This document shows positions 39,023-62,979 of a DNA stretch of 64,000 bases, one piece after another. Origin of the DNA: Tricholomella constricta (taxonomy: Eukaryota; Basidiomycota; Agaricomycetes; Agaricales; Lyophyllaceae); assembly GCA_013368375.1 (NCBI GenBank), contig JAACJP010000043.1:124001-188000 (forward strand). The letters are read 5' to 3'. Within the stretch, counting starts at the first letter, position 1. The number at the start of each line of letters is the position of its first letter. The notes under the pieces were generated by a model. It was not told where the DNA came from, searched no databases, and worked only from the letters and a program-made list of their open reading frames with translations. The translations under genes were made by a program, and so were the position numbers.

Positions 39023-40440
39023 TTATCGCCCCCTCTCATAGATTCGAAGTGTGGAAAGAAGTGCACTGTCGATGACACTGTAAGTAATAAGCTGTTTCGT
39101 TGGCTCCTCTCGGGAGTCGTTCGCCCCTTCGACCGCTATGACATCGTGGAGCGATTCATGATTCTGACTTCTGGTCCGCAATGGACACATGCGGAGGAGG
39201 TGCCTCAGAGGATCAGTCAATGTGGCCTCCAAGGCAGGCAATGGGCTATTGAGTTGAATACGTGCGTTTCGAATTTGCCGTAGCTTGACATTGCCAAATA
39301 TACCCTCGTACTCAGATTTGAGATTCTTGTTTTCAGGGTCACGGAGCACCTCTCGCCAATATAGGAAGTACAAGTATGAATGATTGGTGAACAGAACGGA
39401 CGACCGGCTTTTCCTCCAAGACGCCATTGAGGACTTCGAGGGCGAGGAATTGGGCAGTTCCCTAGTTTGCGAAGTCAGCGACGGAGCTGTGGCAATGGTC
39501 TCCGCTTGTGGTAAGCAGGCCATTTCGAGGTCTGCGATAAATCTTTCATAGCCAGGTTCGGGATCACGATTGGTGCCAGTTGAAGCCTAAAAGTAAATGT
39601 TTCATGGGCTGATATCACGGTGTGTCGCGAAACTGACGATGTCCTAAGATGATCGATGAAACCATGAGCTGTTAATGTCTCAGCGGGAAAGTAAAGGGCT
39701 ACTGTTGTGATAGCTGCACGAAGCCCATTCACAAGTTCCGGGACATCGTTGTACTCCCATAACAGCTTCCCGAATTTATCGGTAGTGCCCGATGGGTGGC
39801 GTTAAGATTACCCCTTTCGATTCCCAATATGTCAGCGACGAGGTCAGTACCAAGAGGGTAATTCTCTCCTCGCGTGTCCGCATTGCAACGTCACCGCCTG
39901 GAGAAGGTTAGCGATAACATGTACACCTGGACCAACAATGTCGTATGTTTGCTTCGCCTGTCCTCTCTGCATTGCGCCACATCCCCTTCAGGATGATGAC
40001 GGGGCGCTTGTCAGTGTACCTCCACACTGAGGTACCCCGATTTACTAAAGGCAGCGAAGCCTATATAGGTAAACCCTCGGTCGTATCGAGCAATAAAAGG
40101 TATGACCAGTTGCAAGTTCCCCCAAGGGTCCATACCGAGATCGTAGTGCGTGGCATCGCAAGTCAAGCGGAGGACAACACGAATAAGCATCTCAAGGCCC
40201 CCAGTTGTCGAGATGTCGTATTTCTGAGAGAAATATACATTGCTGCAGGTGAACAACGCAGCATGGAAAGAGTCGCCGAAGAAGCCTCAAGAAGGCAGCG
40301 CCGATGACATAGATCTGCAACGGTCGTGTAGCGAACTGAGTGCTAGCATAGTCTGCCATCTGGGCAGCCAAAAGGTAGTCCTAACCGACGACTTATTTCG
40401 AGCTCCGTTGTTGTTTGGCGGCAACGCCAAACAACACCAG
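39023..40440 (-). pseudogene. FunK1-type kinase relic
   Basis: Broken leftward frames in at least three phases recall a FunK1 kinase in the right order. A segment with TTGGLEMLIRVVLRLTCD lies near 40030-40256. The helix before the catalytic loop reads VPELVNGLRAAITTVAL near 39690-39760, but no HRD loop follows it. A remnant of the later conserved helix reads GTAQFLALEVLNGVLEE near 39405-39455 in one frame and continues as SYLYFLYWREVLRD in the next. Stops and frame changes make it inactive. It is not a simple copy of the intact kinase at 33155. Confidence 0.5.
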
Positions 40441-45478: not shown

Positions 45479-45702
45479 ATGGAAGGTGGGTTGGGCGGCA
45501 GGGGGGGTGGGCAGAATAGATCTCTCTTGGACCTGGACCACGTGGCACCCCTACCAGGACCCCGGAAAAAACCCGCTCATACGGCAGCGTCTACGACGCC
45601 CGCAGCTACGAGCACTCTGCTTAATCATATTAATACTACCTATACCACTATCTAAGGCCATCCGAGAGAGTTAAACACATTTCCCTGCCCAAAAGAGTGC
45701 AA

Positions 45703-47493
45703 ATGGCAACTGCACAACCGGCCCACAAGCCAACAGCTAACACGCGCCCGAAAACCACGGCGTCAAACACGAAGGTTACTGCAAAGCAGCCGCCGCTCAG
45801 CATTTCGAAAAAGCCCAACATCGATAACGGAAAGAAAGGCACACTACGCAAGGCACAGTGGGGAGACCCATCAGAGGAAGAGGACGGCGAAACGGATGAC
45901 GAAGAGTCGATATTTGACGCTCAGCTAAGTGAACGTCACCTCCGCTCCTTGGGGCTGATTCGCTCGAAGGAAGAACCGTCGGCCATGACCCTGTCAAGGA
46001 CGTTAGGCGTCATAGCGAATTATGAAGGCATAGTCGAGAATCCGTCGACCAGAAACATCGTCCTAGCATGCTCCTACCTCGTGGCCAACCTGGGCCCCAA
46101 CGACATCGCAGAAGCTGTATCCGAAGCCATAGCCAAACAAATGGAGAATATCCACGAAGAAATCAAGCTCACCTTTCAAACCGCGAGGGAAGAACTACGA
46201 GAGGACCTCGTCGAAGCCGCAACGAAGATCAGTGAACAAACTCTACAAGCCAACAACGCGATACAGGAAACAGCAAAATCGATGGAGAAGACAGCTACAT
46301 CCTACAGGGACGTCCTCGCCAGCAACCCCCCAGCCAGCAACATCCCATTCACCTCCAACGGGAACATCGACCCAAGGACACGCGCCAGGGAGGCCATCCG
46401 GATGCGTCAGGTTCTGGTGGACGTCGACGAAGCTAACGACAAGGCAGACCTCAAAAGCGCGAGCGTATCCCAGCTAGTCGACAAAGCCAACACAGCGATC
46501 AAGACGGTAGACCCCAAGACCAAGTTCGAAGTATGCGCAGTGAAACGACTCAACAACGGCGGGATTCTATTCGAGGCCAACAACGATGCCGCCGCGCGAT
46601 GGATTAACAAGAACGCTGAAGCCTTCGCGAACGCCCTCAGCCAAGGGGCAATTCTACAACGTCGTACATTCAACATGATAGCCAGGTTCGTCTCGGTGGA
46701 CTTCGACCCGACCTCCGGCATCCAGCTCTTCGCGCTCCAAGAGAAGAACAACATCCCGCAAGACTCCATCGCCACGATCAAATGGATCAAACTGATCGAA
46801 CATAGATCCCCAACGCAGCGAACAGCCCACCTGGCCATCAAGCTATACGATCAAACGGTCGCGAACGATCTGGCTGTACGGGGTCTTTTCATACTGGGCG
46901 AACGGATTGGGGTCGAGAAAGACAAGAAGGAACCGGTTCGCTGCTACAAATGTCAAGGCTGGGATCACCTGGCCGCGACCTGCGTCAAGAGTCGAAACTT
47001 CTGCGGCCGATGCGGAGACACAACACACATGACCAGAGACTGCACGAGCCAGGACTTATACTGCACGCCCTGCGGTCGCCAGGGACACGTCAGTGGAGAC
47101 AGGCGCCAATGCCCGGCCTATCGAGCGAAAAGAGATGAGTTAAATGCGCGCATGCCTGAAAACTCAATGCCCTATTTCCCCACAGACGAGCCGTGGACGC
47201 ATTCCACCGCACAGCGAGCATCCCAGGCCCGGAATATGACCTACAATCCACAGATCACCGTGCAAGCACCCCAGAGCCAACGACAACGCAAGAACACGGG
47301 ACGTCAACCGCCGGTGAGCAGGGAGACAAGCCTTGCACCACCTTCGACATACCAGGGAAGATCGCTATCACCAAACCCCCCGGAGACCAACAAGAACCAA
47401 CCAGCCACTGGCCCGAACGCCGTGCAGAGGGCCTCTAGGGAACCGTCGGTAGCACCATACTACAGAGGAAGCCTGCCGCCGGATTCAAGATGA
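45703..47493 (+). CDS. LINE ORF1 (Gag-like nucleic-acid binding protein)
   Basis: 596 codons from ATG 45703. An acidic N-terminus (DPSEEEDGETDDEES) is followed by a helical, probably coiled-coil region (about residues 140-210). An RRM-like region follows around residues 270-405. Three CCHC knuckles come next (CYKCQGWDHLAATC, CGRCGDTTHMTRDC, and CTPCGRQGHVSGDRRQC), then a Pro/Gln/Ser-rich tail. ORF1 protein coats LINE RNA and helps target-primed reverse transcription. The frame is intact. Its stop overlaps the ORF2 start in an ATGA, which suggests that ORF2 is made by termination and re-initiation. Confidence 0.85.
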   Translation: MATAQPAHKPTANTRPKTTASNTKVTAKQPPLSISKKPNIDNGKKGTLRKAQWGDPSEEEDGETDDEESIFDAQLSERHLRSLGLIRSKEEPSAMTLSRTLGVIANYEGIVENPSTRNIVLACSYLVANLGPNDIAEAVSEAIAKQMENIHEEIKLTFQTAREELREDLVEAATKISEQTLQANNAIQETAKSMEKTATSYRDVLASNPPASNIPFTSNGNIDPRTRAREAIRMRQVLVDVDEANDKADLKSASVSQLVDKANTAIKTVDPKTKFEVCAVKRLNNGGILFEANNDAAARWINKNAEAFANALSQGAILQRRTFNMIARFVSVDFDPTSGIQLFALQEKNNIPQDSIATIKWIKLIEHRSPTQRTAHLAIKLYDQTVANDLAVRGLFILGERIGVEKDKKEPVRCYKCQGWDHLAATCVKSRNFCGRCGDTTHMTRDCTSQDLYCTPCGRQGHVSGDRRQCPAYRAKRDELNARMPENSMPYFPTDEPWTHSTAQRASQARNMTYNPQITVQAPQSQRQRKNTGRQPPVSRETSLAPPSTYQGRSLSPNPPETNKNQPATGPNAVQRASREPSVAPYYRGSLPPDSR

Positions 47494-48299
47494 TGGAACA
47501 AGACCCGACCACGAAACGACTGAGAATCCTTCAGCAAAACATGGCGAAATCCCGAACGGCGCAATACAATCTACTTAACTCAAACACTTTACAGAAAGAA
47601 TGGGACATCATAATCCTACAAGAACCTCACATCGACACGAATGGAAAGACGCGGGCGTCCCAAGCGTGGCGAGTAATATATCCGACGTCTCACCTTACTG
47701 ACGAGGATGTCACAACTAGATCCGTAATGCTGGTCAACGCGATGCTAGATACTAATACCTGGGAACAAATCTCTATGCCGGGGAACAACGATATCACGGC
47801 GATTCAGATCCGTGGTGAATTTGGACGCTTTTCCCTTTTCAACATCTACAATGACTGCACCCACTCCCGAAACCTCAACGCGCTCAAAGACTTTGTCGAC
47901 GCCAACCGCCGTAAGATCTGCGACCGAGAGGACGACTTCATGATGTGGGCTGGCGACTTCAACAGGCACGACCCCCTATGGGACGAAGCGAGGAATCACC
48001 ACCTCTTTACGGCTCAAGCGACGAGGGAAGCTCAGATCCTAATCGATATGCTGGCAGAGTTCAACATGGTTATGATCCTACCCCGCGGCATGCCAACCCT
48101 TCAAGCCAGACGAACGAAAAACTGGACCAGGCCGGATAACGTCTTCTGCAGCTCCAACCTGGAAGATCTCCACACCCGTTGCGAAACAATACCCTCCCTG
48201 CAAGGCCCATGCACGGACCACCTGCCGATAGTTACAATAATCGACATCCCACTGACGAAGAAACAAGCCGAACCCACGCGAAACTACAGGATGGCCGAC
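47490..48299 (+). CDS. LINE ORF2, part 1: AP endonuclease domain
   Basis: 270 codons before LTR element B cuts the frame. Endonuclease landmarks are complete: Asn in RILQQNMAKS, Glu in ILQEPHID, the Asp-x-Asn motif in WAGDFNRHDPLW, and the terminal Asp-His in CTDHLPIV. The start ATG (47490) overlaps the ORF1 stop. The domain nicks target DNA to prime reverse transcription. After the LTR junction the frame runs a few codons into the LTR and stops. Confidence 0.85.
48295..48299. repeat. Target site duplication of element B, left copy (CCGAC)
   Basis: CCGAC lies directly before the 5' LTR and is repeated at 59732-59736 directly after the 3' LTR. Confidence 0.9.
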
Positions 48300-48520
48300 T
48301 GTAAGGACGCACACTATCTTATCTAATCTTGGTTATCTAATCGTATCTTATCGAGACGATTACGCTATTGTTTGGCAACACCTTCTGGTGTTGCCTATTT
48401 AATTCATTACATTAATTAAGTATAAACAACCTTGTACACCTATACGTAGCAATCGACAGACTTGTCAAGCTTACGTCTAGTGTGAACAACAAGGTCCCCA
48501 AATTCTGTAACCCCGTTACA
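48300..48520 (+). repeat. 5' LTR of element B
   Basis: 221 bp from TGTAAGGACGC to CCCCGTTACA. Base-by-base reading finds no difference from the 3' LTR. It holds a perfect 9-bp hairpin (arms 48374-48382 and 48387-48395). A GTATAAAC near 48421 could serve as TATA element. Confidence 0.95.
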
Positions 48521-48944
48521 TTTTTTTAAGCTACCTTGCTTTCTATTGCTGCGTACCCACGACGTTACGCAGACCCACATTCCATTTAGAACACCCATCA
48601 TCAAAAAGAACCAACGAGACCGAGACCCGATGACAACAACTCCCACATCCGGAAAGAGCTGAACTCCGGTCCTCGAGGATGCGCTCACAGCGCATCCTCC
48701 ATCACAACTTCCACTGCAACCAGTGGAAGTTGGATCAGTCGCTGGTGGACAAAGTTCACCAGCGCAGAATACACTAGGAGTAGAATCGGAGGAACTTTGG
48801 CCAATAGCAAGCACCAATGTGCCTGGGAGCTTGGCCGACGAATTGGCCAGGTCACATCGACCTGGCCCCACGGCGGGAAGCAGATGGCCAGACAGCCGTC
48901 TGTCAAATAGAGCGTTCGGGGCGTCCACCCTGAGCATAATCAAG
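48521..48944 (+). other. Leader of element B with strong hairpins and a short upstream ORF
   Basis: Two perfect hairpins follow each other: arms 48675-48685/48689-48699 (11 bp, loop 3) and 48705-48716/48721-48732 (12 bp, loop 4). An ATG at 48630 opens a 10-codon ORF closed by TGA at 48660-48662, in the same frame as gag. No TGG-type tRNA primer site follows the LTR directly; the sequence there is T-rich. Confidence 0.7.
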
Positions 48945-51710
48945 ATGGAGTCGGACGAAGACGACTTGTCCGACCCCGAGGCTAATGAAGAAGAGGCCAG
49001 CGAAAGGGAACTGCTTGCGCTTCAAGTGAAGCAATTCTGGGACACCACCGATGTGGTTAGCGAGCATCGGCGAAGGCGACTGGAGGAACGAGCGGATAGG
49101 CTCGTTCTGCGATCTACCGGAGCACAATCCGTTGGAGAAATGGTCGCACAAGCATATGCCGACCGATACTTGGAAGCGCTGTCCGTAGTAGTTACGGAAT
49201 ACAGGAAGAAGTACCCTAAGGGAACTTCGAATTCAGCAGTCAGCTCGATCGCTGGGACGCCTGTACCTAAGAAAGCCTCGTTAAACAAAGGGAAAGGTCG
49301 TTGGGATGACCTCTTCACTCCTCAAGCAGTGGCTGCCGGATCGAACCAGCCTCTTGATGAGGCTGCCATGGCAGTATCGGCGCTGCATCAAGCGCGACAG
49401 TTAGGAGAATCTGACGACGATTATCGTCGTCGGTCTGCGGCAGCGAAGCGCGAGAGAATGACTCGTGAAGAGCATCTTGCGCAACCACAGGGATCCAAAT
49501 GGGCCCCTGTTAGTGAGTCTACGTTAGACCCACCCACGGAACGTAAGTATACAACCACGCAAGCAGCTGGCGACGAAAGCGCGCCAGCTATTCAAGTACC
49601 TATGGATGCGAAGGATGGCCGTGTTCCATTAGCGAAAGATTGGAACAACCGAGTCGCATATCAGCGTTTGAGAAACGCTGATTTATCACGGAGCAAGTTC
49701 ACGAATTATGATGATCAAGGAGTCGTCTTCGAAGGACATATGCCCGTAGATGAGATGGCGAGGCAATGGGCCTCGCAAACTCAAGGTTCGGATGGTGGAC
49801 TGGGAAATGGGGCCGTCGGAAAACATAATACGACGGCGACGGCTAACGGCCGTCAAGACATGCGGGTTCGTATAAGTGAACCCACTTCACACGCTCAGCC
49901 TCGATTTCAAAGTCGAGGCTACTCAATGCCTGACCCGATTCGCAGGAGTCAATCAATTGCGGACGGAATATATGCTGCTGGAGAGCAGCATAAAACTAAG
50001 ATGCACGAACGGTTGCATCAACTGATACACGAGCGACTGGCTGTACGCCTATCGCTCCCTGATGGTATGAAATCTCGCCGTGCGGACGCAAAGTCCGTAG
50101 GAACTTATAGTGGAAGCGCCAAGTTTGGCGAATTGGAAGAATGGCTAGCCAGCCTTGTCGTGATGCTAGCCGTGAGCCAGTTTGGAGGAGCAGAACGCGA
50201 CCAAGAGCGCGTTCTGATAACATCTGAGTTCCTTGATGGTGAAGCTCGGAAATGGTACAATCGCCATGTTATCCATGTGAACCGCGAAAAGCAGTCCTGG
50301 ACGTTTGAAGACGTCATACTAGGGCTGTACGATCGGTTCGTGCTGCCTTCAACCATGCAGGATGCTCGTAACGACTTTAACGCCGTTACCTATTCGGCGA
50401 GCAAAGGCATACAAGGTCTGTATGACGACCTTGTGGATCATGCTATGAACATGGCAGCAAGAACGGATGATTGGACGTTCCTGGAGAAATTTCTCAAAAC
50501 ACTTCCGCGCGATATGCGGAAGGCATTATTCGATGACGGGCTATCACCCGAAATCAATACAGCCCAAGAGTTCCTAGCGGTGGGCCTAGCACTTCAAGCC
50601 ACCCAGAAAACGGCTGATTACTTTGAGCGGACCATAACCGCTCAGCGAAGTCAACCGAGCCAAATGCGGAAACCAGATGGGGGGCGAGTAAACGCTCCAC
50701 ACAATACTTTCAACAGGCCTCGACGGGTGTATGGCGCAGTAAATGAAAAGCCATATGTCAAGCCAGCGTATCAGGATCAACCTGGACGTGGAGAGCAAAA
50801 GCCCCACGTCGAAAAACCAGCGATGAAGACAGGAGATCGTCCGCGTTACGATCAACCTAAAAACCACGATCATCACAACCATCCTCCGGGGGAAGTGTGC
50901 TTTAATTGTGGAAAACTAGGGCATTTTGCAAAAGATTGCAAACAGCCCAAGAAACAGCGAGCGTTCCTAAGGGCCGCACGTACAGCGGCACCTGACGCGG
51001 CAAGTGAGGCGGACGATGAAGACACGTCTCCTGAGGACCCGGACGGACGAGACAATGGACGCCCTGATACAGAGGCGGACAATGAAGACGAAGGCGATGA
51101 GTTCGTAGACATGGAGGTCTACGAAAATGAATACTATGCTCGGGACGATGAGACCGAGCGTATGTTTGCAATGACAGAAGTAATTGCGTCAGAAGAACGC
51201 AATGATAAACCACCAGTTCGCAAAGTTAAAGTGCGGACGGGGAGGGACAAAATTGCTCGTCCCGTAGTTCCGATAAAGGACAAGGAGTGCCTTGTCACCT
51301 ACATTAACGTAGGTGGACATGAGGCTTGGACCCTTTGGGATTCCGGGAGTACAACTACCGGACTTACGCCGTCATTCGCTCAAGTGGCCGATATTCGAGT
51401 ATTTCCGCTGGAGGATCCATTAATCCTCCAGCTCGGGACTAAAGGAAGTAGGGCCACAGTAAACTTTGGTACGACGGTGGAAGCCGCTCTGCCAGGGTTT
51501 AAAGGCAAGGTTTACATGGACCTTGCTAACTTTGATCGATACGACGTGATTATAGGCACGCCGTTTATGCGCGCAAATAACGTCGTGCTGGACTTTAACC
51601 GTGACGAAGTGGTCGTCAATGGAGTCGCTATACCAGCGACTAAGGTAAAAATGGAGGATACCGATGGCCGAGCTAGACGCCATCGGTCATTGGAGAAACG
51701 AAGAGAATGA
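48945..51710 (+). CDS. Gag-protease of element B
   Basis: 921 codons from ATG 48945 (MESDEDDLSDPE). The same frame is open upstream to 48663 but without an ATG. A retrotransposon Gag domain lies around residues 385-570 (GEARKWYNRHVIHV, LYDRFVLPSTMQDARNDF). A CCHC knuckle (CFNCGKLGHFAKDC) is near residue 655, then an acidic stretch. The protease has LWDSGSTTTGL (DSG in place of the more common DTG) and the partner motif DVIIGTPFM. The frame ends at TGA 51708-51710 followed by CTA. Translation beyond the stop gives Gag-Pol. The whole gene is dense with hairpin-forming repeats. Confidence 0.9.
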   Translation: MESDEDDLSDPEANEEEASERELLALQVKQFWDTTDVVSEHRRRRLEERADRLVLRSTGAQSVGEMVAQAYADRYLEALSVVVTEYRKKYPKGTSNSAVSSIAGTPVPKKASLNKGKGRWDDLFTPQAVAAGSNQPLDEAAMAVSALHQARQLGESDDDYRRRSAAAKRERMTREEHLAQPQGSKWAPVSESTLDPPTERKYTTTQAAGDESAPAIQVPMDAKDGRVPLAKDWNNRVAYQRLRNADLSRSKFTNYDDQGVVFEGHMPVDEMARQWASQTQGSDGGLGNGAVGKHNTTATANGRQDMRVRISEPTSHAQPRFQSRGYSMPDPIRRSQSIADGIYAAGEQHKTKMHERLHQLIHERLAVRLSLPDGMKSRRADAKSVGTYSGSAKFGELEEWLASLVVMLAVSQFGGAERDQERVLITSEFLDGEARKWYNRHVIHVNREKQSWTFEDVILGLYDRFVLPSTMQDARNDFNAVTYSASKGIQGLYDDLVDHAMNMAARTDDWTFLEKFLKTLPRDMRKALFDDGLSPEINTAQEFLAVGLALQATQKTADYFERTITAQRSQPSQMRKPDGGRVNAPHNTFNRPRRVYGAVNEKPYVKPAYQDQPGRGEQKPHVEKPAMKTGDRPRYDQPKNHDHHNHPPGEVCFNCGKLGHFAKDCKQPKKQRAFLRAARTAAPDAASEADDEDTSPEDPDGRDNGRPDTEADNEDEGDEFVDMEVYENEYYARDDETERMFAMTEVIASEERNDKPPVRKVKVRTGRDKIARPVVPIKDKECLVTYINVGGHEAWTLWDSGSTTTGLTPSFAQVADIRVFPLEDPLILQLGTKGSRATVNFGTTVEAALPGFKGKVYMDLANFDRYDVIIGTPFMRANNVVLDFNRDEVVVNGVAIPATKVKMEDTDGRARRHRSLEKRRE

Positions 51711-51713
51711 CTA
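51708..51713 (+). promoter_or_regulatory. UGA-CUA stop-codon readthrough context between Gag-PR and Pol
   Basis: The stop reads TGA CTA and the frame then stays open into pol. UGA followed by CUA is a well-documented strong readthrough context in viral and cellular genes. A perfect 8-bp hairpin lies just upstream (arms 51661-51668/51679-51686) and a 7-bp one downstream (51753-51759/51769-51775). Confidence 0.65.
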
Positions 51714-54700
51714 AAAGTAACAGTAGAAGATGACGATGATCCTGATAATGAGGGTAGGCCGATAAACAGCCTACCGAAGGATCATCCAGCACTTTTATTA
51801 TCCGAGGAAGAGTTTCAAGAAACTCTTAAGGAGGGGGATAAGCCACCTCCGAAGAAGAGAAAACTCCAACGACGACAGCAGAAGGCACAAAACGAGCCTT
51901 CGAACGAACGAGCACAGGTTGACGAGCCATGCGAAGAACATCAGCGCAATAATGAAGCGCGTAAGACGAGCGGGGCCGACAAGGATACGGAATCAGAGCC
52001 GTATACGAATACGAGTAATCGATCATTTTGGGATAGACCAAATCCACATCCACAATATGAGTGGATGTTCGACCCACGGATGCCGCAAGAATGGAACGCA
52101 GTAATAGCGTCAATGCGGGCTCACGAAGGAAGAAATGTAGGCACGCGAGGACAAGCGTACCGAAATCCACGGCCTGAGGAAGTATCGGAGCCAACGGAAA
52201 TGAATTTTCCGGTGAATATACAACGGGCTAAACGGCCGTTGTATCGGTTACCAGTGAAGGATGAGAGTGACTTTGCTCTCGTAAAACTACGAGCTAGGTT
52301 TGATGTTAAACCTAGCAATAAAGACACAGCGCACATTCGCGCTGCAAGAATGGTGAACGGAAAAGGTGAGGCACCCAATGGAGGCCTTACCGCGGAAGAT
52401 TATCCACGACTTCGCCAGCAATGGCATGACGAATTCGAAGATATGGTGGGTGGTACGAAACAACAGCTACCACCCTGGCGGGAAGTCAATCACGAGATTA
52501 CTCTCGTCGATGATGAGAAACAGTACCAGTACCACGCGCCTGTAAGGGGCTGCACCGTGCGCCCACTCCTATTATCGCTTAGTCTCTCGTTCTCTGTCAT
52601 CGGCCCCCATGGCCCCCGCCTTAGACATACTTGCTGACCGCCATACTGTTCTTACGCCCCTTTCGTAGCCATTACTCCCACACCGACACCACTACTTAGA
52701 TTCCTATCAGTCAGCTGGACAATTGTTACTCATCAGTAGTCAGCGCCTTTACATACCGCCTTAGTCACCGGCTCGGCGATGTAGTATATAAGCCTGGGTT
52801 GGAGATAGAATATCTCCAACCTGAACAATAACAGTATCTTCGGGTTTATACATTGATCGACTCTTAGCTTGCTCTCTCGTCGCCCTCCTCACGTTTCGCA
52901 CTGTTGATTGCTCACTTGACTGCATTCAGGACCCTCTTGGCTCGCGCCGGCTTGTAGCTCGTCGCTCGCCTTCGCCCATCCGGACGTCCTCTAACAGCGC
53001 CGAGGTGCCCAATGTCCCTTCGCGAGGAATTCTACGCGAAGGTCAATCGGTATACGGATTCTAAATGGTGGGAGCCTCGTTCGGTGAAGCAAGCAGCGCC
53101 GCTGCTATGTATCCCGAAAAAAGACGGCTCCCTGAGAACACCCTTGGACGCACGCCAGCGTAACGATAACACGATCAAGGACGTGACGCCCTTGCCAGAC
53201 CAGGAAGTTATTCGCGAAGATGTCGCTAGGGGAAAAATACGGTCCAAAATTGACTTAACGGATGCGTATGAACAAGTACGCATCCTTGAAAAAGATGTAC
53301 ATAAAACCGCCTTCGCAACGATAGCGGGAACATACATCAGTAACATCATGCAAATCGGGGACTGTAATGCTCCCGCGACATTTCAACGATTAATGACGTC
53401 CATCTTTCGGGACGTCATTGGGAAGTTCATGCATGTATACTTGGACGATATATTCATATTCTCGAACTCTATTGAGGAACATGAAGACCACTTGCGAGTT
53501 GTGTTCGAACGATTACGCGAACAATCACTCTACCTTAAATGGAAGAAATGCGAATTGTATTCGGATCGCGTTGATTGCCTTGGTCATATTATTGACGACC
53601 AAGGAATTCACCCTGACGCCGACAAACTGGCACGGATCCGTGACTGGAGGATACCACGGAATTACAACGATATCCAACGATTCGTTGGACTTGTTAACTA
53701 TCTGGGACAATTTCTCCCAGATATATCTGCATACACTGGTCCACTAATGGCGATGACCGAGAATGGGTCGCCATTTTATTGGAGACCAATTCATCAGCGA
53801 TGCTTTGAAATGATAAAGCATATATGCTGCACAACGCCAATTATTCGGCCGATTCAACCGAAGACAGGCGAACCAATTTGGATTATCTGTGACGCCTCCA
53901 AGTCAGGCGTCGGTGCGATGTATGGACAAGGACCTACATGGATCCAAGCCCAGCCGGCTGGATTCATGTCCAAAAAATTCACTAATGCACAGCAGAATTA
54001 TGCTGTGCATGAACTCGAGACCTTAGCTATTCTCGAAGCGTTACTTAAGTGGGAGGATAAACTTGTGGGCTATAAAATCCACATCATTACCGACCATAAA
54101 GCCCTCGAATTCTTTAAGACCCAGGTGAATTTATCACCTAGGCAGCGTCGATGGATGGAATACATGTCGCGATTTAACTTCGACATAACCTATGTGAAAG
54201 GCGAACTGAACAAAGTCGCCGACTGTCTATCGCGATACTTCGAGAGCGATAACCATCAAGATCGTTACGACGTCCACGACTTCGTAGCTGCTGATGCTAG
54301 AATCGATCCTACTGGTGAAGATCTACCAGTACCACGATACCATGAAATCGTGGAAAAAGTAGTTGAGATTCGAGCGATGAAAGACGTAGAACTACGTCGA
54401 AGCAAGCGTCTTCAAGAACGCCAGGAGGATCGAGATGTCGAGGCTCAGATAATGGAGGCTGCGGCACCAAGTACCGCATCCGGAACATCGTCACACCCTC
54501 AGAAAATCATGAGTCCAACCGAACGGGAACGTACGGTCGGAGATATTGTCCTCGGGAGGGACACAGTTTCTCCTCCCCCAGACAAAACGGATGAAAAGAT
54601 CCGTCACGACGTTATCCTTGGATACCCAAAGGATAAACTTTTTTCAGTTATTCTCGCTAACCCCATGGACTTTCGTACGTTCACCACGAAAGACAATCTC

Positions 54701-56071
54701 ATTTGGACCACGAACGCTATAAATGATAGCGTTCTATGTATACCGCGAGAACCCGAGCTCATCACCACAATTATTGAGCAAGCCCATAAAACTATGGGCC
54801 ATTTCGGTGCCGAACGGACTACTGAATATATCCGACGATGGTATTGGTGGCCATCACTAGCCACGACCGTGCGTACGTTTTGTAAGACGTGCGAGTACTG
54901 CCAGCAGATCAAGACGTCGAATCAAAAACTGTCAGGGAAACTACACTCCCTGCCAGTACCAACTAAGCCTTGGGATTCTATCGGAATGGACTTTATCGGT
55001 CCATTTCCAGAATCAAAGGGATATAATTACCTATGGGTAGTAATTTGTCGTATGACGAGTATGGTGCATATGATACCCATACATACGACGATGACAGCAG
55101 CCCAATTATCATGGGTATACTTACGGGAGATCGTCAGGCTACATGGCCTGCCAAGCTCGATCGTAAGCGATCGAGACTCTAAGTTTACTTCACGCTGGTG
55201 GCGCGAACTACATAAGTTATTAGGAGCTAAGCTCCTAATGTCGACATCTTTCCATCCTCAGACGGATGGACAAACGGAGCGAGCCAATCGTAGTATTGGC
55301 CAGATATTTCGTGCCGTTGTGAGGCATGACCAAAAGGATTGGGTAGATTGTATACCCATGGCTGAGTTCGCGATAAATGCGAGCGTATCGGCTACTACCA
55401 AGTTCGCTCCATTTGAGCTGAACAGTGGATACATGCCGTCCATGTTGAAAGAGATACGCTCAGACAGCGTAATACCGAAGGGAATTCGAGAGTATGCGGA
55501 ACGCGCATTGCAGAATATAGCGGAGGCGCATGACGCTATAATCGAAGCGCGCGTATTTCAAACGCGCGAGGCAAACAGGCGCCGATCCGCTGGTCCAGAA
55601 ATAAAGGGGGGAGACTTGGTGTATTTATCCACCAAGAACTTGAACCTCCCCAAGGGACGCGCCCGTAAATTGTGCCCGAAATTCGTCGGGCCCTACAAAG
55701 TGCTGAAGGCCATGCCAGACACGTCGAACTACACGTTGGAATTACCTACGGCACTCATGGAGCGCCGGATACATCCAACATTTCATATATCGATGTTGCG
55801 CCCATACTACGCAACGAATGATACAATGTTCCCTAATAGAACTCATCCGGAGCCCTACGATTTTGGGGCGCCGGATAATCACGAATGGTTTGTAGAAGAC
55901 ATTTTGGGCCATAGATGGACCCAAAATAATACTGTGGAATATCAGGTTAGGTGGAGTCTGGGAGACACCACCTGGGAACCGCACACCAATTGTAACAAGT
56001 TAGCGGCACTGGATCGCTACTTGGGACTACAAGGGGTGAAGAGCGCGTCGAGATTACCGCGACGAACCTAG
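51711..56071 (+). CDS. Pol of element B: RT, RNase H, integrase, chromodomain (split by a solo LTR)
   Basis: Two pieces, 51711-52540 and 53002-56071, join in frame when the solo LTR and one copy of its target duplication are removed. Reverse transcriptase: LPPWREVNHEITLVDD leads in, DLTDAYEQVRI follows, and the active site is HVYLDDIFIFS. RNase H: Asp in IICDASKSG, Glu in VHELETLAI, Asp in IITDHKALEFF. Integrase: HKTMGHFG with CKTCEYC (HHCC zinc site), catalytic Asp in GMDFIGPFP and SDRDSKF and Glu in QTERANRS, then a GPY/F module (KFVGPYKV). A chromodomain ends the protein (WFVEDILGHRW...TTWEPHTN), which marks a chromovirus and would steer integration to marked chromatin. With the insert this copy cannot make full Pol. 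Confidence 0.9.
52536..52540. repeat. Target site duplication of the solo LTR (GCGCC)
   Basis: GCGCC flanks the solo LTR at 52536-52540 and 52997-53001. Confidence 0.85.
52541..52996 (+). mobile_element. Solo LTR, 456 bp, inside pol of element B
   Basis: It starts TGTAAGGGGC and ends TCTAACA, is flanked by GCGCC, and has a TATATAAG at about 52794, as an LTR promoter would. It has no long frame of its own and is not similar to the 221-bp LTRs apart from the first bases. Unlike its surroundings it lacks frequent perfect hairpins. The orientation is inferred from the TATA box. Confidence 0.85.
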
Positions 56072-56199
56072 AATGTGGCGCGGTCATGTGACCACGGCGA
56101 TCAGGAAAATTACATAACCATCAAAAGTTATGACAGAAGGTTAAATATGTTTGGCGCTAGACGCGCAACCGATTTTCAACCCTCTCAACACAAACCAAC
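56072..56199 (+). other. Spacer between pol and ORF3 of element B
   Basis: 128 bp without a frame in phase with pol. I see no clear splice acceptor or promoter that would explain how ORF3 is expressed. Confidence 0.5.
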
Positions 56200-59154
56200 A
56201 TGTACCCCAGCCAAGTACCAACCTCCAGCAACGACGCGATTCGGGGCGGCGACAGCCGCACCGACCAGCAAAATTTGAACCCGGGGCCGAGTTCAAGTGG
56301 GGAGGGAGCGCAGGGGCGCGCGGAAAATGCGCCCCTGCCCCCAACTTACATGGGCTCGCAGCCCCAATTATATCAATATCCTCCGGTTGGCCATATGAGC
56401 CAACCGCCCCATCAGGGGCAACAAACATTTCCGACGGTTGGCCATATGAGCCAACCGCACCACCAAGGGCAACAACCACCTATGGGTGGTTTTTACCCGC
56501 CAGGGCTGGCATTCCAACAGATGCCATCAATGGCGGGTTTCATGGGGTACCCGCAACCGACGTGGTACCCCCAAATGCCCATGCAGCCTGTACCGCACAA
56601 TACGCGGTACAACGAATCGGAGAAGATGGAGGTAGACGACCAAAGTCGTCTGCAAGCAAATGTCCCGCCGGCGCAAGTGGTGCGCGGCGAACCGGTGCGG
56701 CAACATGTTGCACCGAATGCAGACGACAAAGCGTCGTCGGCGTCGAGTTCGCGGAGGATGGCAGACGATCGTAGAGTATCGCCTGCGTCAAGTTCGAGGA
56801 GACCATTCGCAGACGATGGTCTCCTGTCTTCTCTCTTGGATCGATTGGAAGACGCGGGTATTCACCGCGAATTTTGTGATTTCTTGGACGATGGAATGGC
56901 GCAGCTGGTTATAACCCAGCTGCTTGATGCATACGATGGAGTTTGCGCGGATTTGAGACGCGTGAAAGCGAGAGAAGCGGCCATGGCTGAGCAATTCAGC
57001 CTGGCAAGAAAACGGCCGGCAGTAGCATCGCCGGATCGCGGGGAGGGACCATCGTCCCGACCCATAAAAAGGCAGCAAATGGAGGTGCGTCGAGAAGAAC
57101 GCACCTCATACGAGCCGCGACGACAAGAGAGGAGCGAGCCCAGGCGTCCGGAACGACGCCTGGAACAGGAGAATCGGCGGTACAACCGCCACCCCGACCA
57201 GGAAGTGTGGCGTGACGAACGCCCACTTGATTATGGTTCTCAACGGGAAGAGCGCCGAGAGGATCAAGGGACGCGCGAAGTGCGCCCCTTACCTGCTCGA
57301 GAAATCGAGCGCACGGCGTCGACATCGTCGACGTCAGCGGAAGCAAAGCCGCAAAACCTATCCGGAGCGTTACCGCCCCCGGGAGAAAGCCGGGTGCGGA
57401 ACCCAGAACGAGGTTCTCAGAAGAAGGAACCTGTTGGCAAATATACTTTGCCAGCGCCAGCCCCTGCACCACCTAGTACGATGGTGCAGCCCCCAACGCC
57501 GCCCTCCAAAGGCAAACAGAAGGCATCGGATCCATATGCCGAGGCTATGGATGAATCGGACTGGGGTGAGTCGTCTGACGACGACAAGCCTGTCAGCAAG
57601 AAGAAGGCTGCCGGGCAAAAGCAGCATCGCGAGAATATGGCTCGCAAAGCTGAGAAGGAGATGCCGGGGCGGATCCCTGACGAGCTCGGGGTGGTCTTCA
57701 TCAACGACCGCCACGAGAGGGACAACCGCTTTTGGGATATGCTAGTGCGGACGATATATGTATCGTCCGCCCAGAATCGTGCCTACGCACTAGGCACCGC
57801 AGCGCGAGTGTCCGAAAGCGAGTTGGGGACGGGACACAATTCTCGTCCCCCATCGGGACGGCTATATGCCGTCGCACCACGCGGGTTCCCAATGAACCCT
57901 CGTGAAGTTGATCAGTTGTATGCACTGATCAACGATCGGCGCCCCGGCGTGACGGATGAAGAGCGGGCAGAGGCCTTTATGCTCTTTAGGGAGTTCCGGC
58001 GAGTCTCCCTTTCGGTAGCGCCCCATTTGCGCGACCGATCCATGGCTCGAGCAGCCATGGATGAATTTAGAAGCGTCAACCGACCGTTCGATACACGGTC
58101 ACCCATTTGGCAGGCCGCGCCAATTAGGCGGCCTGGGAGGGCATTCGAATATAGGCCGGACAAGCCTACACGAGGCGCTGGCCTGCCTCAGCCAGGCCCC
58201 GACCATGCCCTCGATGTCGAGCACTGGTGCCGACATATGATTCACCATGGGCGTATTGGTTCAAAGAACCAATACGGAGGAATCGTCATGGACTACCGGT
58301 TCCGCGTACATAGGCGCGGAACTTGGGGATACTTGTTGGCGAATGTACTAGCGCCAACTACCCACAGCATGCGGTCATGGTTCATGCGACTTTTCGCGAC
58401 CATTACTGCGCGGCCATACCTCTACGCAGAGGCTGTGGCTGCCTATAACGAGGCCAACCCAGATCGGCCTTTCACACCGATCGAAGGCCCTGAGGTTACC
58501 ATACCTCGCATCCAAGTGATCCCTCCGGAGGTGCGGATCACTGAACAAGGTGTCTTGCAACACCTTATCAACATTGGTATTCCAGTAAGCTGGATACACC
58601 ATAGCTACACTTATGGTCTACATTATTTGGACCATAACTACTCTAACTCAGGTCCCTATAAGGACCTGTTCCGCAATGTTGACGACGATCGAGTTCGTCG
58701 TCTAGATGAAATGGGTGTTCCGCCCGCCATCCCTGAGTGGGATGGGTGGTACCATCCCACCACCGACGACATCACGCGCATCCAAACACTGATGCACGTG
58801 GAATTCCAGACCGAATCACTAGACTGTCTAGTGAGTTCGGAATGGATGTTTGTGGGTGAAGACCCACACTTCCGAGGACTCCGTGTTCGGGTGGGGGAAT
58901 ATCTCCCCCCAGGCCTGCATCACCCCGCTTCATCGGGATCGACGTCCATCAACGTCGAAATGGCGGACCCGGCGGCAGCTATACCTGCCCCCGCGACACC
59001 CTCCACAGTCGTGGCAGCTCCAACTGGAGCTACCGAAACCCAAGTGGACCCCGTGTCGGCCCTTACAGGGCCTTTATCACTGGCGGTGATTACCACCAGC
59101 CAGGGTCTGGTGGACAACAACACCACCGACCCCGACACAGTGATGGAGTCATAG
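56200..59154 (+). CDS. ORF3 of element B, unrecognised protein in the env position
   Basis: 984 codons from ATG 56200, uninterrupted. The N-terminal 160 residues are Pro/Gln/Tyr/Met rich with a repeated VGHMSQP. A helical segment follows (LLSSLLDRLEDAGIHREFC, residues 210-265). A strongly basic, Arg/Glu-rich low-complexity region covers about 285-370, then a Pro/Lys linker. The C-terminal half (about 490-900) looks folded, with conserved-looking blocks such as NDRHERDNRFWDMLVR, DVEHWCRHMIHH and FRVHRRGTWGYLLAN. There is no signal peptide or membrane helix, so it is not an envelope protein. I recognise no domain. The intact frame in a young element suggests a function. Its coding sequence has the same dense hairpins as gag and pol. 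Confidence 0.8.
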   Translation: MYPSQVPTSSNDAIRGGDSRTDQQNLNPGPSSSGEGAQGRAENAPLPPTYMGSQPQLYQYPPVGHMSQPPHQGQQTFPTVGHMSQPHHQGQQPPMGGFYPPGLAFQQMPSMAGFMGYPQPTWYPQMPMQPVPHNTRYNESEKMEVDDQSRLQANVPPAQVVRGEPVRQHVAPNADDKASSASSSRRMADDRRVSPASSSRRPFADDGLLSSLLDRLEDAGIHREFCDFLDDGMAQLVITQLLDAYDGVCADLRRVKAREAAMAEQFSLARKRPAVASPDRGEGPSSRPIKRQQMEVRREERTSYEPRRQERSEPRRPERRLEQENRRYNRHPDQEVWRDERPLDYGSQREERREDQGTREVRPLPAREIERTASTSSTSAEAKPQNLSGALPPPGESRVRNPERGSQKKEPVGKYTLPAPAPAPPSTMVQPPTPPSKGKQKASDPYAEAMDESDWGESSDDDKPVSKKKAAGQKQHRENMARKAEKEMPGRIPDELGVVFINDRHERDNRFWDMLVRTIYVSSAQNRAYALGTAARVSESELGTGHNSRPPSGRLYAVAPRGFPMNPREVDQLYALINDRRPGVTDEERAEAFMLFREFRRVSLSVAPHLRDRSMARAAMDEFRSVNRPFDTRSPIWQAAPIRRPGRAFEYRPDKPTRGAGLPQPGPDHALDVEHWCRHMIHHGRIGSKNQYGGIVMDYRFRVHRRGTWGYLLANVLAPTTHSMRSWFMRLFATITARPYLYAEAVAAYNEANPDRPFTPIEGPEVTIPRIQVIPPEVRITEQGVLQHLINIGIPVSWIHHSYTYGLHYLDHNYSNSGPYKDLFRNVDDDRVRRLDEMGVPPAIPEWDGWYHPTTDDITRIQTLMHVEFQTESLDCLVSSEWMFVGEDPHFRGLRVRVGEYLPPGLHHPASSGSTSINVEMADPAAAIPAPATPSTVVAAPTGATETQVDPVSALTGPLSLAVITTSQGLVDNNTTDPDTVMES

Positions 59155-59510
59155 GTCGGGGAGACAACTTAATCCCCCCGTCAACGAACCGACCTCGACA
59201 CGTAGGGCGTACCGCCGGGCCGACCGCCATTGTCAGGTGCAGACCACCTGACTCCCGAGGAGCAATCCGCAGGTTGCGTATTAACGCAACATTGGATGTC
59301 CTCACCACCATTCTTTGCCGCACGGCACTTTGAGGCCGTGCAGTGGCGCTAATGCATCCACTACTCGTTAAGTCACGAATACGTATTATACCTACGTATT
59401 CTTGCATTATTTGATAGGTCTAGGTCGCCGGGACCTAGACCCTCCTTTTACTTTCTTTTTCTGCCCAACTCCCTGGTGAAGATCGCTACACGCGATCTTA
59501 AAGGGGGGTA
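59155..59510 (+). other. 3' untranslated region and polypurine tract of element B
   Basis: It contains perfect hairpins with stems of 7-10 bp near 59318, 59375 and 59415, and one with arms 59479-59486/59492-59499 directly before the polypurine tract (AAAGGGGGG, 59500-59508). The tract lies 2 nt before the 3' LTR and would prime plus-strand DNA synthesis. Confidence 0.8.
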
Positions 59511-59731
59511 TGTAAGGACGCACACTATCTTATCTAATCTTGGTTATCTAATCGTATCTTATCGAGACGATTACGCTATTGTTTGGCAACACCTTCTGGT
59601 GTTGCCTATTTAATTCATTACATTAATTAAGTATAAACAACCTTGTACACCTATACGTAGCAATCGACAGACTTGTCAAGCTTACGTCTAGTGTGAACAA
59701 CAAGGTCCCCAAATTCTGTAACCCCGTTACA
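59511..59731 (+). repeat. 3' LTR of element B
   Basis: 221 bp, read as identical to the 5' LTR; followed by the CCGAC target duplication at 59732-59736. Confidence 0.95.
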
Positions 59732-59736
59732 CCGAC

Positions 59737-62700
59737 TGAGTCAAGTTCAACAAGGCACTCGAGAACAAAATCACCGCGCGAGGCTTCCCGGACCCGGTAC
59801 CCATTACTAACAACGACGAATTTCAGCACCAGGTCTCTATGTTGACAGAAGCGATCCAAGAAACGATTCAAGAGGTCATACCAATGACGAAGATCACCCC
59901 ACATACGCGGAGATGGTGGAGTCGGGAACTCGAGTCGATGCGAAAGCGCGTTAACAAGCTGAGTGCAATTGCCCACAACTTCAGAGGAATAGATGACCAC
60001 CCTAGCTCGGTCGACCTCGACGAAGCGAAGAAGCTCTACGCTGCAGAAATCCTGAAGGCCAAATCCGCCCATTGGAAGGAATTCCTGGAGTCGGCAATGG
60101 AACGAGAACTGTGGATCGCGAACCGTTACATGACTGATCCTACAGGCGACGGCGGCAAAACACGCATACCGACCCTAAAGTATAAGGGAACTGACGACAG
60201 GCCGGCCGAGGCAGTGACCAACGAAGAAAAGAGCCAACTCTTCGCCAAGACGCTCTTCCCACCGCCACCCGAGAACACCTCTGTACCGGTCGACTATGAA
60301 TACCCGGACCCACTCCCCACCAGCGGACAGATAACGAAGGAGCAGCTCCGTCGAAACCTAGCGAAGCTCAGCCCTTACAAGGCATGCGGGACCGACGAGA
60401 TACCGAACATCGTCCTGAAACAGGCCTACCCATTGATCGAGGACTACTTACTGCACATATACAGAGCGGCAGTCAACCTCGGGATATACCACCCTGGCTG
60501 GAAAGAGGTAATAACGGTCATACTCCGCAAGCCGGGAAAACCGGCATACGACGTGGCGAAGGCCTACCGACCAATAGCCCTGTTGAACACCATGGCGAAA
60601 CTGCTCACCGCTATAGTCGCCGAGGACCTGACCCACATCATGGAGAAGAATGGACTTCTGCCCAGCACACAATTCGGAGGGCGACCGGGACGAATGACGA
60701 CCGACTCTCTACACATTATGACCAACTGGGTGAAACACGAATGGCGACAAGGACGCGTGGTGTCGGCCCTACTACTCGACATTGAAGGCGCCTTCCCCAA
60801 TGCAGTATTGGACCAGCTCATTCACAACATGCGGAAACGACGGGTGCCGAAGGAATACGTGGATCTAACGAAACAGCTTCTAACAGGCAGGCGAACCAAG
60901 CTTAAATTCGACGACTACACGTCCCCCTGGGTGGACGTCGTAAACGGCATCGGTCAAGGGGATCCGATCTCTATGATTGTATACCTATTCTACAACGCTG
61001 ACCTGCTAGATATCCCTAAGGGCCGGCGACAGCTTGCTCTAGGCTTTGTTGATGACGGTGCTTTCCTGGCCTCGGGCGACAACTTCGAGGAAACCAATAG
61101 AATCCTCCGCAAAATAATGAACAAGCGTAAGGGAGCCTACGACTGGTCCGAACGACACAACTCCAAATTCGAAACCAGCAAATTCGAGTTACTCCACCTC
61201 ACGCAACGACGGGACCCGGACCCCAACAGAGCTGGCAAAACGAAGAGAATGGCCCGGCCACCGATAATCCTGAGAGGGACGACGATCGAACCATCTCCCG
61301 TGGCAAGATTCCTGGGCGTGATGGTAGACGACGAGCTGAGATGGAAAGCGCATGCGAAGTATGCGGCCGGCAAGGGCACGAAGTATACCCTTATGTTCCG
61401 CAGGCTCACGAGGCCGTCGACGGGGCTTAAACAAGACTTCATGGAACGCCTCTTCATGGCGGTAGCGGTCCCGAAATTCGCCTACGCCGCCGATGTGTGG
61501 TATACGCCCATCCACCGGAAACCGAACCACGAACGCGACACGGGTTCGGTGGGCGCGGCCCGTCAGCTCGCGAAATCACAGAGAATGGCACTACTCGCCA
61601 TCACAGGAGCGATGCGATCGGCACCCACGGATGCTCTGGAATTACATGCTAACCTACCCCCCATAGACCTTCTCATGGACAAGATCTGCCACCGCTCGGC
61701 GATGCGGATAGCGACACTACCGAGCGCACACCCCCTTCACAAGAGGATCCGGCATTGCGTAAGGTACAATGTTAAGTGCCACCGCTCACCTTTACACAAT
61801 CTAGCGAAGCTTTACCACATCAAACCCGATGACATGGAAACCATCGACCCAGTACGGCAGCTACCAACGTACCAACGACCCTTCCAGACGCACATCGCTG
61901 ACACCAGGGAAGCCTCCCTGGAGGACGACCGCAACAACGAAGCGCAGATACGAATCTACACGGACGGCTCAGGCTACAAGGGACACGCGGGAGCGGCGGC
62001 AATCCTGATCAAGGAGGACGAACCCCCATTAACACTTCAATACTACCTGGGCCCCTTATCCCGTAACACGACCTTCGAAGCCGAAGCGGTCGGGGTATCA
62101 CTCGGTTTGCAGCTACTAACAGAAGCCACCTTACCTAGGGTAACGACTCTGACGCTGGACAACCAGGGTGTCATACAATCTACTGCGATATACCGACAGC
62201 GACAGAGTCACTATCACTTCGACGCAATACACGAACAAGCGAGAAGGATCCAGCGGCGGGAACGAGCAAGGCCTACTTACAACCTACAGATTACGTGGAT
62301 ATCCGGACATTCGGGAGCGGATGGTAATGAGCTAGTCGACAAGGCGGCCAAAGAGGCGGCACAGGGGACAACCAGCGAATGGAGACGACTCCCCAAGTAC
62401 ATCCGCGAACTCGGAGGGAGACTACCAGCCAGTGTATCGGCCCTCAAACAACAACACAACGCGGCCCTCAAGCGACGATGGGGCGAACGATGGCAGAAGT
62501 CCCCTCGCTACACCAAATACGAGGCCTTCAAGGAAGGCCTCCCTTTTAACAACTTTCGCAGGGCGACAGAGGGTCTCACGAGGCGGCAGTACAGTCTGAT
62601 AGTACAACTTCGAACTGGGCATGCCCCCCTCAACAAACACCTGTACAGGCTCACGGTCGTCGACAGCCCCAAATGCCAGCACTGCCCGGACGACGAGGAA

Positions 62701-62979
62701 ACGTTACGACATTTCCTGTACCAATGCAGCAACTACCGCCATGCCCGGACCGACATGACTGCGAAGCTCGGAAGAGACGCCTACGCCGCCGACACTCTCT
62801 ACGGCACGAAGAAAGGCATCAAGGCCCTATTACAATACATAGCGGACACAGAACGCCTGAAGGACACATTCGGTGATGTTACCCCCTACAATCTCAGTGA
62901 CGACGATGAGGATGACCCCGCACAGACAGACCTTGACCCATTCGGTGACGCAGCGAATGAAGACAGCGAGGACGAATGA
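59737..62979 (+). pseudogene. LINE ORF2, part 2: reverse transcriptase, RNase H, zinc motif
   Basis: Continuation of the frame that starts at 47490. The first codon after the target duplication is TGA (59737-59739), where the preceding residues (RMAD) suggest an original Trp. The rest is open for 1079 codons. The reverse transcriptase has ALLLDIEGAFPNA and the active site GFVDDGAFLA. RNase H has IYTDGSGYKGHAGAAA, Glu in FEAEAVGVSLG, Asp in LTLDNQGV and Asp in GNELVDKAAKEAA. A terminal zinc motif reads CQHCPDDEETLRHFLYQC, and the C-terminus is acidic. Catalytic residues are all kept, so only the TGA and the LTR insertion disable it. Confidence 0.85.

Follow-up and report, generated by a model that had tools for sequence, protein, structure and literature searches.

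Plus-strand RNA viruses with genome-scale ordered structure (GORS) fold more strongly than their shuffled sequences along the whole genome, mostly into local stem-loops, and keep this folding while the individual pairings are poorly conserved between relatives (PMC7642675). The values reported there, about 15% for SARS-CoV-2 and 23.4% at the top, come from a method that differs from the present one (PMC7642675). In the mitochondria of Nematomorpha, perfect inverted repeats of up to 284 bp occupy the coding sequence of organelle genes at dynamic positions (PMC6649704). Yeast Ty3, an LTR retrotransposon, has a structured genomic RNA in which SHAPE places a well-folded core in about 20% of the RNA (PMC11381356). 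Our literature search, which covered titles and abstract openings and for the most part papers outside subscription journals, found no retrotransposon reported to be folded into hairpins over its whole length.

The locus described here lies in a window of 64,000 nucleotides from the fungus Tricholomella constricta. Element B (48300-59731) is a young LTR retrotransposon of the Ty3 type; yeast Ty3 belongs to the same broad class, but the predicted structure of element B extends over its whole length. It belongs to family A, one of seven related families that we read in this genome (A, A2, B, C, C36, D and E); family B is a separate relative. The element works in a GORS-like way without being a plus-strand RNA virus, and comparing its pol with viral contigs yielded no relative. 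Relatives at the protein level occur in Lyophyllum atratum. Unlike the folds of GORS viruses, its fold consists largely of perfect Watson-Crick stems and is nearly as strong on one strand as on the other, as in A2, C, C36 and D. In contrast to the nematomorph palindromes, the arms measure 7-12 bp, the carrier is a mobile element and maintenance between lineages is visible.

All features described below, controls included, lie on the + strand. Its class is evident from identical 221-bp LTRs (48300..48520 and 59511..59731; an exact repeat with TG...CA ends), a 5-bp target duplication, CCGAC, and a polypurine tract read from the sequence at 59500..59510, adjoining the 3' LTR. A Pfam scan found gag with a CCHC motif and pol in the order RT, RNase H, integrase; a protease domain was absent from the hits. 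The 5' LTR contains a 9-bp hairpin (48374-48395). It is followed by a leader (48521..48944) that starts T-rich, where a self-complement scan gave no match of at least 8 bp and the usual tRNA primer binding site was not recognised by eye. Gag (48945..51710), 921 aa long, includes a zinc knuckle of the CCHC type. The 5' part of the pol reading region occupies 51711..52540; there a solo LTR from another element has inserted (52541..52996; target duplication GCGCC) and cuts pol at its 5' side. The region continues as an ORF of 1019 aa (52997..56071) with RVT_1, RNase H, Integrase_H2C2, rve and SH3_Tf2-1 domains; in many other copies the pol frame is 1299 aa. ORF3 (56200..59154; 984 aa) matched nothing in Pfam at E 0.001, and its predicted structure, with a mean pLDDT of 37, was set aside. 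It is found in families A, A2 and B, with an only weakly similar counterpart in D. A 3' untranslated stretch (59155..59499) leads to the polypurine tract. The host LINE, with its 5' part at 45697..48299 and its 3' part at 59732..62979, and the solo LTR served as controls.

We counted stems as perfect Watson-Crick arms with loops of 2-12 nt. Including the solo LTR, 48300-59731 holds 107 stems with arms of 7 bp or more, 59 of which reach 8 bp or more; 30 dinucleotide shuffles average 5.8 (maximum 11) and 1.4 (maximum 5). Leaving out the solo LTR gives 106 (38+68) and 58 (21+37), against about 5 and 1. The loops of stems of at least 8 bp run from 1 to 14 nt, with a steep fall beyond. Every ORF lies above all 60 of its codon-preserving shuffles, the comparison proposed by the sequence-only reading that first listed the hairpins: 25 stems of at least 7 bp against 1.9 (maximum 5) in gag, with the frame starting at 48945, 24 against 2.3 (maximum 8) in pol and 36 against 2.5 (maximum 6) in ORF3; the pol part upstream of the solo LTR adds 6. 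Per kilobase, such stems number 8.8 in the 5' LTR, 11.9 in the leader (counted over 48526-48944), 9.0 in gag, 7.2 in the gag-pol gap, 7.8 in pol, 0 in the 128-nt pol-ORF3 gap, 12.2 in ORF3 and, at the top, 17.1 in the 3' UTR (59155-59505).

The controls behave differently. The LINE is at chance, with no stem in 45703-47493 and 2 in 59737-62979 (shuffles 1.3), and the solo LTR has a single stem of 11 bp (52797-52807/52811-52821). Among 30 other Ty3 loci, 29 have 0-2 stems, and the 120-nt MFE excess ranges from -5 to +14% (mean 3%); since these loci group into only 4 sequence clusters, and 27 share a single cluster, they amount to about four independent controls. All 13 arm pairs of the sequence-only reading are exact, and the excess that it claimed is real and stronger than it stated, its figure of about 30 stems with 8 bp or more being too low. 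Its statement that the hairpins leave the frames unbroken holds for gag, pol and ORF3 apart from the cut at the 5' side of pol, and its hairpin-free controls are so for the LINE and nearly so for the solo LTR.

In gag, pol and ORF3 the MFE excess over codon-preserving shuffles is 21-30%. Families A, A2, C, C36 and D are packed with hairpins (stems with arms of 7 bp or more, observed and shuffled: A2, 54 and 3.0; C, 40 and 3.7; D, 37 and 3.75), family B combines strong folding with a small number of perfect stems (18 and 5.3), and E is near background (5 and 2.2). Fold strength on the plus strand in 350-nt windows is 25-27% in A, 24% in A2, 20% in family B, 22% in C and D, 4% in E and 1% in the LINE. 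Family E is not wholly flat, as its pol reaches 6.8% on the plus strand (z -3.2, codon-preserving shuffles). The RNA phages MS2 and Qbeta, which have no DNA stage, reach 29% and 31% by the same measure, and their minus strands are also folded (24% and 30%). However, they contain fewer perfect stems, 2.0 and 3.6 of at least 7 bp per kilobase compared to 9-10 in A. Predicted pairs spanning at most 30 nt make up 69% in the pol-ORF3 part of A, 54% in both phages and 48% in the LINE.

While their density stays, hairpin positions largely turn over between families. Overlap of pol hairpin arms was 26 against 30 after shifting for A-C, 33 against 27 for A2-C and 27 against 25 for A2-D. Turnover is incomplete, however: A and D overlap by 74 against 28, above all 500 shifts. 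Hairpin axes in common within pol number 1 for A-C, 3 for A-D and 7 for C-D. The hairpin in the RT core (53260..53285) has a counterpart at this position in C91, which belongs to the C clade, the two differing by a paired T-A to C-G exchange, and at 58816..58834 A and A2 each carry a hairpin, differing in sequence and register. Any single hairpin seems dispensable, its position and pairing drifting while the total folding is kept. As in GORS viruses, the MFE excess over both kinds of shuffle runs along the genome, the stem-loops are short-range and sequential, and pairings are poorly conserved between relatives, except in the A-D arm overlap. Of the roles offered by the sequence-only reading, the best match is an ordered RNA structure across the genome, of the kind that some RNA viruses have, because the fold is whole-length with a large MFE excess, its strength resembles that of MS2 and Qbeta, and its positions largely shift. 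Judged by predicted folding, the ordered structure of this Ty3-type clade is genome-scale: each long part of the element, coding and noncoding alike, shows a bias toward short local fold-back, and in five of the seven families (all but B and E) the predicted fold consists largely of perfect Watson-Crick hairpins.

The two strands are almost equally folded in the five hairpin-packed families. Plus/minus z-scores are -2.38/-2.25 for the gag part of A, -2.46/-2.31 for its pol-ORF3 part, -2.27/-2.21 for A2, -2.25/-2.25 for C, -2.36/-2.14 for D and -2.06/-2.16 for C36, with -0.39/-0.29 for E. In A gag the plus strand folds slightly better (p = 0.004), and in 350-nt windows of A and A2 it leads by 2-4 points. 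Family B, which is nearer to A than either C or D, has a clear plus-strand bias (-1.84/-1.20, p = 5e-6). Across all positions, changes breaking a pair to G-T numbered 56 against 82 expected, and to A-C 48 against 69; the third-position counts were 46 against 63 and 28 against 46 (33 against 40 and 19 against 31 in stems of at least 7 bp). Stems with one mismatch carried G-T rather than A-C in 10 versus 4 cases in C, 6 versus 2 in D and 23 versus 19 in five families pooled; in A the mismatch was G-T once, A-C five times and something else 13 times. When wobbles were allowed in C stems, G-T occurred 32 times (6.5 shuffled) and A-C 30 times (9.5 shuffled). Pairing is mainly Watson-Crick, and there are signs that G-T is mildly tolerated, somewhat more than A-C at third positions, in one-mismatch stems of C and D and where wobbles are allowed. 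A-to-I editing as the maker of pairs was rejected, as repair of A-C mismatches was not in excess (17 against 18 expected).

We compared changes between lineages with those private to inserted copies. Polarised changes in the C clade broke pairs 135 times against 211 expected and made them 69 times against 51 (46 against 28 at third positions). Far-loop controls have ratios of 0.84 and 0.94; the break ratio of 0.64 compares with the 0.84, and a single far-loop control (100-110 nt, third positions) gave 10 against 23.7. In pol, the A branch made 9 pairs against 3.3 and broke 4 against 12.5. No constraint appeared in A2 pol (makes 5 against 3.4, breaks 14 against 15.0) or in family B (10 against 7.5 and 14 against 14.4). 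Private variants of ORF3 copies broke pairs as often as expected (62 against 62.1), while the 42 variants common to at least two copies did so 6 times against 11.9, with no excess of makes (2 against 1.8). Shared variants and between-lineage changes avoid breaking pairs, modestly, and the signal is partly common to the controls. Under-represented breaks and over-represented makes between lineages, together with hairpin-neutral private mutations, indicate that the bias acts in the replicating lineage; folding seems to be kept while elements copy and lost once they have settled in the genome. Third-position divergence is lower in arms than outside them (14/132 versus 148/834 in pol, 35/197 versus 202/703 in ORF3). 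We dropped the reading of this slowness as purifying selection, since picking stems that are perfect in one copy itself lowers the expected change, and relied on the polarised tests with far-loop controls instead.

Several other explanations can be weighed against these results. That base composition, codon usage or chance makes the hairpins found no supporting point; dinucleotide and codon-preserving shuffles, the LINE and 29 of the 30 other Ty3 loci contradict it, and we count it as refuted. Selection could act on plus-strand RNA structure alone, for stability, translation or pausing in reverse transcription, leaving the near-perfect pairing of the other strand incidental. The plus bias of family B, the slight plus excess in A and A2 and the signs that G-T is tolerated, seen at third positions and in families C and D, suit this explanation. 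Nevertheless, the z-scores of A2, C, D and C36 are symmetric, G-T and A-C breaks are equally avoided over all positions, and one-mismatch stems in A are seldom G-T, making it quite improbable in our view. A copying error is an unlikely source: on meeting an imperfect inverted repeat, the element's reverse transcriptase would switch to the nascent strand that it is making and turn the repeat into a perfect one, so that hairpins accumulate without function. Such switching has been suggested for the nematomorph palindromes (PMC6649704) and proposed as an origin of RNA stems (PMC8794818), and it accords with the perfect Watson-Crick stems, their small loops and turnover, their confinement to one clade and their neutrality after insertion. 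Its signatures, an arm rewritten by one cluster of changes and inverted loops, were not found outside one C/D stem with all 5 changes on one arm. Changes in altered stems fall on both arms (sum of squared differences 37 against 93 expected for A/A2 and 66 against 104 for C/D), a spread to which coding constraint may contribute, and stem-making changes in the C clade divide 34:36 between arms. Changed loops match directly rather than inverted (156 against 52 letters in 25 A/A2 loops, 85 against 30 in 19 C/D loops). Private stem gains are at chance (A, 7 against 5.8; A2, 3 against 4.8), and among 33 private-change clusters in the copies of ORF3, 2 extend a stem to 6 bp, none extends one to 7 bp, and in 13 a stem becomes shorter. 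Stem-altering changes being mostly single and on both arms, template switching, also raised by the sequence-only reading, finds little support.

The hairpins might also be dispersed packaging or compaction signals, bound in number by Gag or the ORF3 protein to condense the 11-kb genomic RNA. Their distribution over the whole length, the CCHC Gag, the presence of ORF3 in the families named above and the A content of loops compared with the rest (35-37% against 26-28% in A, A2 and D; weakly, 29% against 26% in C and 30% against 27% in B) are in keeping with this. Yet inspection by eye saw no common loop motif, the strands are nearly symmetric, and yeast Ty3 can do without nt 429-4979 if its proteins are provided in trans, although packaging there is also reported to depend on UTR or POL sequences (PMC4974528). 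We consider such signals very unlikely as the cause.

The best reading, to which we give a probability of about 0.55, is genome-scale ordered structure held by weak selection in the replicating lineage. This selection would act mostly at synonymous sites, on copies passing through RNA and cDNA. Near-equal folding of both strands suggests, less surely, that the complementary strand, as antisense RNA or cDNA, must also fold. The most likely use would be that local hairpins keep both strands from pairing well, whether with one another or with other copies, which would leave less long double-stranded RNA for silencing by host Dicer, RdRP and Argonaute; matches to Piwi, RdRP and Dicer are present in the host genome. 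Compaction for packaging would be the main alternative use. A more specific version is tentative and, we think, rather unlikely: both strands of the whole element would be selected to self-fold so that sense and antisense (or cDNA) could not pair, a structural escape from homology-dependent silencing with a two-strand form in A, C and D and a plus-biased form in B.

The causes of whole-length folding in RNA genomes have been studied mainly in viruses. Here a single genome holds numerous copies of a mobile element along with sister families that are folded to different degrees, and it shows neutral decay after insertion, so that gain, loss and maintenance of folding can be counted. This element family therefore provides a route to study why some RNA genomes fold so strongly.

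The retrotransposon at 48300-59731 is a Ty3-type element with 221-bp LTRs identical to each other, a 5-bp target duplication and a polypurine tract. We did not see the usual tRNA primer binding site after the 5' LTR (48521-48560), a stretch that opens with seven T. The element's gag carries a zinc knuckle and its pol RT, RNase H and integrase domains; a third reading frame, ORF3 (56200-59154, 984 aa), has no Pfam match. Among the best 7986 candidates of ~5.8 billion proteins, ORF3 has three relatives, all from Lyophyllum (63, 43 and 42% identity); the annotation of one, P0003, makes it part of a tannase-like protein. The host is therefore probably an agaric near this genus. All 40 genomic copies scored, of 155 candidates, match the element at 97-100%. 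We call this family A. Its relatives in the same genome are A2, B, C and D (pol amino acid identity 96% for A2, 75% for B, 59% for C and D; C-D 88%) and E (47-48%, integrase region), with the C-like members C91 (91% nucleotide identity to C) and C36 (85%). ORF3 identity to A in the alignment is 84% for A2, 31% for B and 21% for D.

The sequence-only reading described this element as packed with perfect hairpins, and all 13 arm pairs that it listed are exact. Defining a stem by perfect Watson-Crick pairing and a loop of 2-12 nt, we counted 106 stems of 7 bp or longer, 58 of them 8 bp or longer, in the element minus the solo LTR inserted in pol (52541-52996), compared to summed values of ~5.4 and ~1.2 from 30 dinucleotide shuffles per part. 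The excess runs through the coding regions, as claimed: against 60 codon-preserving shuffles per reading frame, gag has 25 stems (shuffle maximum 5), pol 24 (maximum 8) and ORF3 36 (maximum 6). The number of stems declines geometrically with length, up to 12 bp, the loops of stems of at least 8 bp span 1-14 nt, and A makes up 35.5% of hairpin loops versus 28.4% of the element outside hairpins. The proposed built-in control survives in part, with the surrounding LINE at chance but the solo LTR carrying one 11-bp stem.

In ORF3, 56384-56406 and 56435-56457 hold an identical 8-bp hairpin with an identical loop at 51 bp spacing, as would result from a short tandem duplication that included the hairpin. 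Outside the element, isolated perfect hairpins lie at 40409-40436 (12 bp) and 30162-30187 (10 bp). Between 7174 and 7544, five hairpins (7174, 7308, 7352, 7482 and 7526) share the 7-bp arms TCACTGT/ACAGTGA around differing loops of 3-5 nt, and tandem repeats flank the stretch.

Several related families carry the same feature. Counts of stems of 7 bp or longer, each versus the average of 20 dinucleotide shuffles, are 54 versus 3.0 in A2 (6.7 kb), 40 versus 3.7 in C (7 kb), 37 versus 3.75 in D (7 kb), 18 versus 5.3 in B (9.6 kb; only 4 in pol) and 5 versus 2.2 in E (5 kb; shuffle maximum 4); for C36 the count is 30 in 6.6 kb, and for C91 it is 22 in 5.2 kb. Among 30 other Ty3 loci, representing about four families, one has 5 stems and the remaining 29 have between 0 and 2. 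The trait is therefore a mark of the clade, not a property of the host genome.

Folding energies agree. Relative to codon-preserving shuffles, the plus-strand excess in 120-nt windows is 21% in gag, 30% in pol and 26% in ORF3; in pol of B, C, D and E it is 21, 29, 28 and 7%, in ORF3 of B 19%, and in the LINE -3 and -7%. In 350-nt windows, A reaches 25-27%, A2 24%, B 20%, C and D 22%, E 4% and the LINE 1%, with the RNA phages MS2 (29%) and Qbeta (31%) as yardsticks. Values given in PMC7642675, by a method different from ours, include ~15% for SARS-CoV-2 and a record of 23.4% for vertebrate RNA viruses. Thus, the hairpin feature is real, clade-wide and spans the whole element.

Individual hairpins turn over. 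With pol aligned by codon, arm overlap is at the level obtained after shifting in A-C (26 versus 30 positions), A2-C (33 versus 27) and A2-D (27 versus 25); A-D overlap (74 versus 28) exceeds 500 of 500 shifts. Shared hairpin axes in pol number 1 for A-C, 3 for A-D, 7 for C-D (of 20 and 19) and 16 for A-A2 (of 24 and 23). At 58816, both A and A2 form a hairpin, differing in sequence and register. Comparing A ORF3 stems with an A2 copy (L055) at columns stable within families, we found that both partners had changed in 7 pairs that still pair and in 2 that do not, against 41 with a change on one side; compensation thus occurs but does not dominate.

Changes polarised across C, C91, C36 and D bear on how stems persist (stems of at least 6 bp, random expectation). 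Breaks fall short (135 versus 211 expected; 91 versus 141 at third codon positions) and makes exceed expectation (69 versus 51; 46 versus 28). Because control pairs with loops of 20-230 nt give ratios of 0.84 for breaks and 0.94 for makes, part of the break deficit is method bias. In pol, makes and breaks are 9 (3.3 expected) and 4 (12.5) on the A branch, 5 (3.4) and 14 (15.0) on A2, and 10 (7.5) and 14 (14.4) on B. Among ORF3 variants of 12 A and 9 A2 copies, the 199 private to one copy break stems at the random level (62 versus 62.1), while the 42 found in at least two copies do so about half as often as expected (6 versus 11.9); makes are not in excess in either class (8 versus 9.5; 2 versus 1.8). 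Among private changes (copies L039, L044-L062), C-to-T and G-to-A substitutions predominate, with 107 of 165 in A and 66 of 97 in A2, as expected from decay following insertion, as after cytosine methylation. These modest but concordant counts indicate that upkeep of hairpins is limited to the replicating phase of the element.

Such upkeep could come from copying itself. Template switching would rewrite one arm, often inverting the loop, and one C/D stem does have all 5 changes confined to one arm. However, where the other copy lacks two or more pairs of a stem (26 A/A2 and 27 C/D stems), both arms carry the changes, in a split more even than binomial to which coding constraint may contribute, and changed loops match directly rather than inverted. 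Stem-making changes also divide evenly between arms (34:36 for the C clade and 8:6 for pol of A and A2), and of 33 private-change clusters, 13 shorten a stem and 2 extend one to 6 bp. Weak selection, rather than a copying bias, is the likelier source of maintenance.

If selection acted on plus-strand RNA, G-T pairs should be tolerated over A-C. At third positions they are, somewhat (breaks to G-T 46 of 63 expected, to A-C 28 of 46), and stems that allow wobble somewhat favor G-T in A, A2, B, C, C36 and D, but over all positions the two hardly differ (56 of 82; 48 of 69). Folding shows no measurable difference between strands in A2, C, D, C36 and A pol-ORF3. Plus-strand bias is slight in A gag (p = 0.004) and strong in B (p = 5e-6), so the test is able to see it. 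Family B (L040), unlike its relatives, combines a strong fold and clear plus-strand bias with few perfect stems; here the trait takes a second form.

In RNA phages, both strands occur as single-stranded RNA, and both fold. Both strands of the element may be required to fold, a less secure reading than weak selection itself. We propose that the benefit is reduced exposure to silencing. The host has matches to Piwi (16 matched stretches), RdRP (18) and Dicer (3), which goes only as far as making such a benefit possible.
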